Assembly (NCBI GenBank): GCA_016868665.1
Contig: VGGK01000008.1
Coordinates: 1-64,000 of the forward strand
Direction of reading: 5' to 3'
Source: Chlorobiota bacterium
GTDB lineage: Bacteria; Bacteroidota; Chlorobiia; Chlorobiales; Chlorobiaceae
DNA length: 64,000 nucleotides
Under the pieces are notes generated by a model. The model did no database searches. It saw only the letters and a list, made by a program, of their open reading frames with translations, and was not told the DNA's origin. A program made the position numbers and the translations under genes. Shown one piece after another: positions 19,837-59,102 of this stretch. Position 1 is the first letter of the stretch. Each line of letters starts with the position of its first letter.

Positions 19837-19925
19837 ATCCCGCCTGAAACCGTATGTTTCGGTTTACATTTTTCCGCTGTTAAGAGAGGTTTTTTTACTC
19901 TGTTTTGTGATCCGTTTTACCTTAA

Positions 19926-20070
19926 GGGCATCCCTATAACGTGTGATGAGCGCACAAAGAGCAAGACGGACGGAGCGGAGAATCCGGAGTGTACACGTAG
20001 TACATGAGGATTTCGAGCACCGACCAACCCGAGCAATCTGAGCGCGCAATAACGTTATAGAGGTACCCTC
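19926..20070 (+). repeat. Structured dispersed repeat, copy 1 (upstream of mtnA)
   Basis: A 145-bp element with terminal arms GGGCATCCCTATAACGT (19926-19942) and, inverted, GGGTACCTCTATAACGT (from 20052-20068), matching at 14 of 17 positions. The interior (about 19961-20028) is nearly identical to copy 2 at 58929-59072, with the shared words GACGGAGCGGAGAA, CCGGAGTGTACAC and GTACATGAGGATTTCGAGCA. The arms differ from those of copy 2 but remain complementary within the copy. It ends 36 bp before the mtnA start. Confidence 0.8.
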
Positions 20071-20105
20071 AACAACCTGAAAACCCTATAATTACAGGCA
20101 CTCTT

Positions 20106-33557: not shown

Positions 33558-35938
<2,381 letters not shown>

Positions 35939-36044
35939 TTAATGATTGCCGCTATCCTGAGAGCAGGAAAAACCGGGAGCCGGACAGGCAGGGAACAGCA
36001 GAATTCTGAAGAGAGGTATGAACATGCAGAATGGCAGACATACC

Positions 36045-36148
36045 ATCATCTCTCCCGGTCTGTTCTCCGGGATGGAATTGGCACCAATCACTGTGCATGA
36101 CGGTTGCCAAGGCTTCTCAGGGCCAGTCCCTCCACCTTTCTCGATGAT
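36045..36148 (-). promoter_or_regulatory. SAM-I riboswitch (S-box) of metYX
   Basis: On the minus strand the conserved SAM-I core is plain: GAGAAAGGTGGAGGGACTGG, CCCTGAGAAGCC, GGCAACC, GGTGCCAATTCC and the closing GAGAGATGAT. P1 pairs ATCATC with GATGAT. Binding of S-adenosylmethionine should shut down metYX. Downstream, GGTATG/CATACC with flanking GAGAG/CTCTC could form a competing hairpin that captures the 3' strand of P1; a CTCCCGGTTTTT segment follows nearer metY. Confidence 0.93.
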
Positions 36149-36191
36149 AGCGCTAAATGCTGAAAAGAACATTTTTTCTTTATATCCCGGC

Positions 36192-45867: not shown

Positions 45868-46389
45868 TTATAACTGCCCCTGCTGACTGAAATACCGCAG
45901 TTTCCCGGTTTCGAACCCGAGTGAATCGGCTTTGGCGACAAGCTGCTGCAGGAGTGCAGGCTCCATTTCCGGCTTTCGGGCAAGAATCCAGAACAGGGAT
46001 TTTTTATGTCCGCAGACAATAGCCCAGGAGTAGTTCACCCGGTCAAGAGCCACGACGTTGTAGCTTGCATAGAATGGCCCGAAAAAAGAGACCTTGAGAG
46101 CGCCTTCCGTAACGTCCCCCACAAATACAGCTTTGCCTTCGATGGACTTCCACTCCCCTTTTTCAGCATCGTAACCGCGGTTCATGACCTTTACTTTTCC
46201 GTCTTCGCGAAGCGAGTACTCTGCGGAAACCTGCCCGAGATTTTTCTCGAACCGGTTGTCGAGCCGGGCGATCTCGTACCATGTGCCGAGATACCGTTCA
46301 AGACGGAAACCGTCGACCACGGTAAGTCCTTCCGGTACGCCGGTACAGCCGGAAAGAAGCATCAAGAAAAGCAATAACAGTTTTTTCAT
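45868..46389 (-). CDS. Lipocalin lipoprotein (Blc-like), copy 2
   Basis: A 173-residue outer-membrane-type lipoprotein: signal peptide with lipobox (LFLMLLSGC, Cys15) and the lipocalin fold marked by RYLGTWYEIARLDNRFEKN, AEYSLREDGKVKVMNRGY and the closing YSWAIVCGHKKSLFWILARKP. Bacterial Blc binds fatty acids or lysophospholipids. It lies 14 bp after a paralogue at 46404-46943, with clear similarity along the whole length, so the pair arose by tandem duplication. Confidence 0.9.
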   Translation of the reverse strand: MKKLLLLFLMLLSGCTGVPEGLTVVDGFRLERYLGTWYEIARLDNRFEKNLGQVSAEYSLREDGKVKVMNRGYDAEKGEWKSIEGKAVFVGDVTEGALKVSFFGPFYASYNVVALDRVNYSWAIVCGHKKSLFWILARKPEMEPALLQQLVAKADSLGFETGKLRYFSQQGQL

Positions 46390-46403: not shown

Positions 46404-46943
46404 TTAGTTGCCACCATCCTTCGGCTTTCCGCTGTATCCGGAATATCGTAATTTCGTTGTGTCGAAACCGAGCGAATCGGCTTTTGCCGCCAGACGCTTC
46501 ATAAGCGCCTTGTCAATTACCGGTTCCCGGGACAGAATCCAGAACATGGATCTGTCGCGACCGCAGGCAATTGCCCACGAGTAGTGTTCTTTATCGAGTG
46601 CAATAATATTATACTCGGAATAAAACGAACCGAAAAACGAAACCTTAAGCGCGCCCATGGTTTTGTCGCCGGACAGATGCGCTTTTCCCCGCCTGAAACG
46701 CCAGCGTTCGAGCTCCACATCATACCCCTTGTTCATGATCGAGATCCGCCCGGAATCGTCGACCGAATATTCTGCGGAAACCCGGTCAAGATTCTTTTCG
46801 AACGAATTGTCGGAACGGGCTATTTCATGCCATGTTCCGAGAAACCGATCGAGCCGGAAACCATCGACGACACGAACACTATCAGGAACTTCGGCGCAAC
46901 CGGCGATCAGCAGAACAATAAAAACGAGATACTTCTTCAACAT
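46404..46943 (-). CDS. Lipocalin lipoprotein (Blc-like), copy 1
   Basis: A 179-residue paralogue of the downstream gene: lipobox VLLIAGC (Cys16), RFLGTWHEIARSDNSFEKN, AEYSVDDSGRISIMNKGYD and YSWAIACGRDRSMFWILSREP. The Tyr of the GTWYE motif is His here, a difference in the ligand pocket entrance that might change specificity. First gene of the pair; a short GATCAGG tandem repeat lies just upstream. Confidence 0.9.
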   Translation of the reverse strand: MLKKYLVFIVLLIAGCAEVPDSVRVVDGFRLDRFLGTWHEIARSDNSFEKNLDRVSAEYSVDDSGRISIMNKGYDVELERWRFRRGKAHLSGDKTMGALKVSFFGSFYSEYNIIALDKEHYSWAIACGRDRSMFWILSREPVIDKALMKRLAAKADSLGFDTTKLRYSGYSGKPKDGGN

Positions 46944-58769: not shown

Positions 58770-58928
58770 CGGCGTCGATGGATTTTCATGGTTGGCAATA
58801 GCAAGACTAAAATGTATTATTTTCCTCGTTATTGCTATAAGGGCATCTGTGATTATTGCCGCAAGAGGCCGGTTTACAAAGCGGGACACCGCAGCAGATC
58901 GGGATCGGGTTTCGCAGACAATAACTAC

Positions 58929-59072
58929 AGGGCACATCTATTTATTGTCGTGAGAAGCACGAGTGCAAGGCGGACGGAGCGGAGAAACCGGAGTGTACAC
59001 AGAGTACATGAGGATTTCGAGCACCGCCCAACACAGCAATAGGGATTCGGAACAAATAAATAGAGGTGCCCT
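58929..59072 (+). repeat. Structured dispersed repeat, copy 2 (upstream of psd)
   Basis: A 144-bp element with terminal arms AGGGCACATCTATTTATT (58929-58946) and, inverted, AGGGCACCTCTATTTATT (from 59055-59072), matching at 17 of 18 positions. The interior is nearly identical to copy 1 (19926-20070) and in the same orientation relative to the downstream gene. Its arms differ from copy 1 in the TATTTATT/TATAACGT part but stay paired. It ends 31 bp before psd. Confidence 0.8.
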
Positions 59073-59102
59073 ACAGGTACCCGTAACTGCTTATCGTTCG
59101 AC

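Follow-up and report, generated by a model that had tools for sequence, protein, structure and literature searches.

Background

ERIC-like small palindromic repeats have been known for decades, and we know of no transposase for them. Several described systems come close to the repeats studied here. ERIC is 127 nt long with TA at its termini (PMC2229807), YPAL/RU-2 has duplications of 3–26 bp (PMC2229807), and R0 and R2 of P. fluorescens resemble MITEs and have the same inverted repeats as a resident insertion sequence (PMC2718517). Among RNAs, sX9 belongs to the most prevalent annotated sRNAs (PMC9029176), and sX9 genes show altered expression in X. campestris (PMC10924375).

The window, i.e., the whole stretch of 64,000 nt that was analysed, carries two copies of a repeat for which, at a probability of roughly 80%, the best explanation is a 142-nt non-autonomous miniature transposon (MITE) of Chlorobiaceae that is mobilised by IS5-family transposases and keeps an old fold with swapped ends.

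Delimitation and gene context of the two copies

Exact copy boundaries were set by inverted repeats and target duplications. Copy 1 (19926..20068, + strand, 143 nt) has the ends GGGCATCCCTATAACGTG and CGTTATAGAGGTACCC, and copy 2 (58930..59071, + strand, 142 nt) has ends of the TATTTATT type (GGGCACATCTATTTATTGTC and ACAAATAAATAGAGGTGCCC). Both repeats of the initial annotation were recovered, with limits slightly inside the coordinates given there and with an interior of about 71 bp that is 92% identical between them. Copy 2 has a perfect 4-bp target duplication on its two sides (TACA at 58926..58929 and 59072..59075), and copy 1 a decayed one (TTAA at 19922..19925, with TCAA at 20069..20072 as its partner). 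A core shared with other phyla, AGACGGACGGAGCGGAGAATCCGGAGTGTACACGTAGTACATGAGGATTTCGAGCACCGACCAACCC, spans 19964..20031 of copy 1 on the + strand (limits approximate). When the first and last 17 bases of each copy were compared, 14/17 positions formed Watson–Crick pairs and one a G.T pair in copy 1, and 16/17 were paired in copy 2, in agreement with the within-copy complementarity of the arms noted initially. Both copies folded far better than shuffled sequences, on the + strand (z −5.3 for copy 1 and −5.9 for copy 2) as well as on the other strand (z −5.7 and −6.1).

Downstream of copy 1, outside the element, lies mtnA (S-methyl-5-thioribose-1-phosphate isomerase, TIGR00512; 20106..21170, + strand), whose ATG is 37 nt from the end of the copy; copy 2 sits in the divergent tilS/psd gap and ends 31 nt before the ATG of psd (phosphatidylserine decarboxylase, NF003682; 59103..59741, + strand, likewise outside the element). 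This shared orientation at 31–37 nt before a start codon had led to the proposal of RNA leaders, and cis-acting, riboswitch-like control of mtnA and psd would also agree with the covariation across the whole element described below. The placement holds for both window copies and was not confirmed as a general rule, as orientation elsewhere is random: the gene contexts of 66 Chlorobi copies (++ 18, −− 21, +− 15, −+ 12) showed no bias, and relative to the upstream gene 33 copies had the same and 33 the opposite direction. A general leader role is ruled out by this unbiased orientation. Further points against leaders are the target duplications, the unrelatedness of the neighbouring genes, and the result of Rfam at the gathering threshold, which gave nothing at the element in the window. 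Related genomes also have psd without the element in front of it: the orthologous tilS/psd gap in G064, G003, and G015 was free of it, with flanks too diverged for a clean empty site. Leader control of the two genes is therefore highly unlikely, and the repeats are MITEs, not gene leaders.

Elsewhere in the window, an ordinary SAM (S-box) riboswitch was found at 36043-36150 (− strand, 90.3 bits), upstream of an apparent O-acetylhomoserine sulfhydrylase gene (34631-35935) and a MetX-like gene. Two 149-nt direct repeats, 71% identical and starting 551 nt apart, are located at 46213-46361 and 46764-46912.

Abundance and mobility in Chlorobiaceae

About 25–30 copies of the element are present in the genome of the window (28 matches at E<0.05, in both orientations; 2.38 Mb in 100 contigs) and hundreds across Chlorobiaceae, where 43 of the 61 sampled genomes had matches, some of them with over 80 candidates. 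This abundance is far beyond chance. No description of the element in Chlorobium was found in the literature.

For the analysis of target duplications, 84 Chlorobi sequences were extracted, and the 71 that were well delimited were used for counting. Identical flanking 4-mers occurred in 43/71 copies, compared to a mean of 3.15 and a maximum of 10 with shuffled flanks. Duplications of 3 or 5 bp were almost absent among the same copies; hence, the target duplication is exactly 4 bp. Target sites were AT-rich (ATAA, TTCA, TTAT, TGTA, and others). The element consequently shows the features of a MITE, being short (142 nt) and non-coding, with terminal inverted repeats, many copies, and a target duplication of fixed length (4 bp).

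Several variants were observed. In a longer subtype of ~170–175 nt (five copies in the genome of the window: L014, L016, L017, L020, and L023), the left side of the core has an additional stem of ~30 nt (AGCTCC...GGAGC). In L018, L023, and L183, among others, part of the right half-core is replaced by a small palindrome, TCCCGA....TCGGGA, which is perhaps another small nested repeat. One copy of ~210 bp (L187, G061:C79:39700-40400) has kept both ends and has its centre swapped for unrelated sequence. On another contig of the same genome (G061:C39, L186 around 364-406), a 43-bp palindrome consisting of the arms only (GGTCACCTCTATTTATT...AATAAATAGAGGTGACC) is flanked by AAAA on either side, as if the ends had moved alone or the core had been deleted.

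IS5-family insertion sequences in related genomes

Candidate parent insertion sequences were reached through a PF01609 search, which in G042 gave transposase genes followed by ...CTTTTTAGAGGTGCCC. In a protein search of 86 family genomes, relatives were found in 24, including the genome of the window, a draft assembly in which the insertion sequence survives only as a relic of ~540 bp (L238). Complete insertion sequences are 1278–1326 bp long, with GGGCACCTCTA-type ends and 4-bp duplications, e.g., TCAA (L226, 1313 bp), ATAA (L242, 1278 bp), TGTA (L223), TTAA (L243), TTAT (L222), TTTA (L224), and TAAA (L230). Their transposase belongs to the IS5 family, matching NF033581 at 270 and 276 bits (NCBIfam cut-off 140) in addition to PF01609. 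The ends of the MITE are thus also those of an element that encodes a transposase and generates 4-bp duplications as well, and one genome (G026) holds four intact copies of the insertion sequence alongside MITEs.

Over the left end, L226 and the MITE have the terminal 17 bases in common and nothing in the interior; hence, the MITE is no deletion derivative of the insertion sequence. The same left-end sequence is present at both ends of the MITE, and the left and right ends of the insertion sequences are less alike. Two inner end types, TATTTATT and AAAAAGT (in full, CTATTTATT and CTAAAAAGT), occur identically in insertion sequences and MITEs, with the AAAAAGT type in both kinds of element in G008, G014, and G026 and the TATTTATT type in both in G066. 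Since the parent insertion sequences also have the two types, these help to explain arms that differ between copies and match within a copy, and for the two window copies they account for some of the difference in the arms. Element lineages would accordingly carry the end type of different parent insertion sequences.

Insertion sequence and MITE were not always detected together. No relative was detected in the element-rich genomes G036, G045, and G057, perhaps due to assembly gaps, and G025, G033, G053, and G060 have the insertion sequence and no match to the element. Searches for pairs of exact ends yielded no ~1.3-kb pair in G045, G057, G026, G010, G008, and G014, nor, among the matches listed, in G061 and G062. 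A 740-bp end pair in G062 that was considered as a partner was actually formed by two decayed copies around a yqgF/ruvX-like gene.

On sequence comparison, the ~1.3-kb IS5-family insertion sequences of related genomes are likely the autonomous parent. A resident transposase of this kind would recognise the ends of the MITE and insert it with a 4-bp AT-rich duplication, and the shared ends and duplications point to such mobilisation in trans. The initial annotation had offered, besides the leader, an ssDNA hairpin recognised by a transposase; the transposase part is supported, in that the parent belongs to the DDE-type IS5 family and agrees with the element in its ends and 4-bp duplications; recognition of an ssDNA hairpin would be hypothetical. 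Movement of the hairpin by a REP-associated tyrosine (HUH) transposase, as in REP/REPIN-like repeats, would suit a palindromic, intergenic sequence of many copies that can possibly fold as a single strand. This has next to no probability, because insertion was accompanied by exact 4-bp target duplications and the ends are shared with DDE insertion sequences, both of which are foreign to HUH transposition.

Fold and covariation

Folding of 65 Chlorobi copies with RNAalifold gave a single long hairpin with internal loops, in which 96% of cells are paired and 22/36 pairs show double-sided changes. The covariation score was 0.334, compared to 0.148 when shuffled and at most 0.094 when slid. In Proteobacteria, 25/36 pairs covaried, with a score of 0.535 versus 0.156 shuffled. 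Counted on a tree, 36 replacements of one Watson–Crick pair by another had taken place. The variable pairs comprise the arms as well as internal stems (columns 27-38/115-126, 47/102, and 67/84). As the internal stems covary too, matching of the ends to a transposase cannot explain every variable pair. Selection for a folded structure, initially proposed from the arms of two copies, is therefore better founded than that proposal claimed, as covariation spans the whole element, including the deep core. Mismatched internal loops were likewise conserved across phyla. The arms, apart from their part in transposition, would form the foot of one hairpin that spans the full length of the element.

The signs of a simple MITE that had been named as evidence against a selected fold, i.e., random orientation and a transposase-bearing parent, were both found; paired arms and a covarying interior nevertheless persist. 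The element is thus a MITE that also conserves a fold.

Possible strand preference of the fold

The consensus fold reaches −29.3 kcal/mol on the core strand versus −15.4 kcal/mol on the other, and two pairs are nearly fixed as G.U on the core strand in both Chlorobi and Proteobacteria. Changes of pairs passed through G.T more often than through A.C in Chlorobi (65:21, p 2e-6) and in Proteobacteria (25:8, p 0.005; the alignment of this set relied on a model fitted to the plus strand). Among pairs that were predicted on each strand independently, the ratio was 37:13 (p 0.0009). The argument is statistical: single copies fold nearly equally well on either strand, with the plus strand lower in 45/65 and 21/28 copies, and copy 1 of the window folds better on the minus strand. 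Folding of one strand in single-stranded form is suggested by the conserved G.U pairs together with the greater frequency of G.T intermediates compared to A.C.

One arm of a palindrome can be copied from the other during replication. The element could accordingly be a plain MITE whose covariation is a by-product of such hairpin-templated repair (quasi-palindrome correction) or of end matching, as terminal arms must suit the transposase at both ends, and the fold itself would be unselected. Covariation was, however, found in internal stems far from the ends, mismatched internal loops that correction would erase are conserved across phyla, and the excess of G.T over A.C intermediates is predicted neither by double-stranded recognition nor by hairpin-templated repair. 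An unselected fold is therefore improbable. For the MITE with a conserved fold, the asymmetry between G.T and A.C suggests that the selected form is one specific single strand, ssDNA or RNA, that would act during multiplication of the element.

Homologues in other bacteria

When a covariance model was built solely from Chlorobi copies, it detected full-length homologues (E 1e-36 to 1e-12) in Enterobacterales, Methylococcaceae, and beta- and other Proteobacteria. These have kept the fold and a ~60-nt core at about the same length with different terminal repeats, and the homologues delimited by the Chlorobi model end at, or a few bases from, the inverted repeat of their own lineage. Matches to the core were present in 5395/5426 E. 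coli genomes (median of 3 places) and also in Aeromonas and Comamonas, and exact core patterns occurred in Yersinia, Pectobacterium, Erwinia, Kluyvera, Methylovulum, Herbaspirillum, and others. The data show homology of core and fold across phyla.

The proteobacterial end sequences are unrelated to the GGGCACC of Chlorobi. Copies in Methylococcaceae have GAACGTGTTTTAAAA ends, two of them with 3-bp duplications (TGA and TAA); those in Betaproteobacteria have CAGGCTGTTGAAAA ends with the duplications TTAG and CTAG; and those in Enterobacterales have GAGCCTATCCCA ends with duplications that, where visible, are mostly TTA or TAA. Duplications of 3 bp (TNA) and 4 bp (YTAR) are typical of subgroups of the IS5 family. 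Partner insertion sequences for the proteobacterial ends were not found by the PF01609 search in G088-G094, nor by a search of three Enterobacterales genomes for the end pattern. Places on plasmids that have enterobacterial ends were considered as insertion sequences, and those inspected were copies of the element. One of these plasmid copies, in Enterobacter (L215), has intact enterobacterial ends and lies next to an efflux operon, with a mercury regulator gene nearby; similar places were seen on Klebsiella and Citrobacter plasmids. Given element copies with intact ends on plasmids, the element is able to travel between species.

As a homologous core and hairpin occur with different ends in Proteobacteria, it seems that an old folded module received new ends that suit different transposases, with the ends presumably replaced in other lineages. 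A core conserved between phyla, combined with changing ends, points to a parasite of parasites that is able to switch its transposase. A wider reading is put forward tentatively as a possible, still doubtful extension: Chlorobiota and Proteobacteria would share one ancient superfamily, possibly including ERIC, with a strand-specific 142-nt fold, terminal repeats swapped according to the resident IS5-type transposase, and the fold, as ssDNA or RNA, as a working part of multiplication.

Comparison with known systems

sX9 (RF02228), the Xanthomonas sRNA, overlaps the left half of the core and the central hairpin, at 33.2 (L001), 29.6 (L010), and 40.9 bits (L061, Comamonas), i.e., below the Rfam gathering threshold of 44. 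Together with the prevalence of sX9 (PMC9029176) and its changed expression in X. campestris (PMC10924375), these matches would allow for a mobile element with an sX9-like, trans-acting sRNA transcript, whose fold is kept for its function as RNA and merely spread by transposition. We consider this unlikely, since the sX9 match lies on the strand opposite to the one favoured by wobble pairs and covers only about half of the element, and dozens of diverged copies per genome fit a mobile element better than an RNA gene. For the fold-conserving MITE, the overlap means that structure scans and sRNA annotations such as sX9 can pick up mobile elements.

YPAL/RU-2, the 168-bp Yersinia palindromic sequence, resembles the enterobacterial copies in being enterobacterial, palindromic, and target-duplicating. 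An identity of the two was suspected and rejected, as alignment to the printed sequence scored 20 versus 18.5 shuffled (PMC2759123).

With ERIC/IRU/RU-1, the element has in common the size class, the long hairpin, the intergenic position, and a description without known parent. Motifs follow in the same order (GCAAGGCGG...GGAG..TAC..GTA..TGA...CCAACGCAGC) on one strand only; the alignment score was 36 versus 18.4 (sd 3.2), with p about 4e-4 on one strand and 0.7 on the other. With the Chlorobi model, five of seven ERIC copies scored 11-20 bits and outranked every other place in 20 kb. Model scores for ERIC were 5-22 bits overall, and the element's own reverse complement reached 27.8 bits (combined model), so structure alone can give scores of this kind. 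Where ERIC has a TA target duplication and TATACCC ends, the element has 4-bp duplications and GGGCACC ends. ERIC may thus be a distant relative, and the weak similarity was treated as a lead.

By description, the element can be likened to R0 and R2 of P. fluorescens, in which the inverted repeats also match an insertion sequence. It is also close to IS5-family (NF033581) insertion sequences and their MITEs, with which it shares terminal inverted repeats and a 4-bp AT-rich target duplication; its ends are identical over 17 bp to one end of such an insertion sequence from the same bacterial family. For a small palindromic repeat of the ERIC-like kind, a concrete partner candidate whose ends and target duplications match is now available, which makes mobilisation of the repeat testable. 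Unlike other IS5-family MITEs, the element has as its interior an old conserved fold of other phyla and not the internally deleted remainder of an insertion sequence.
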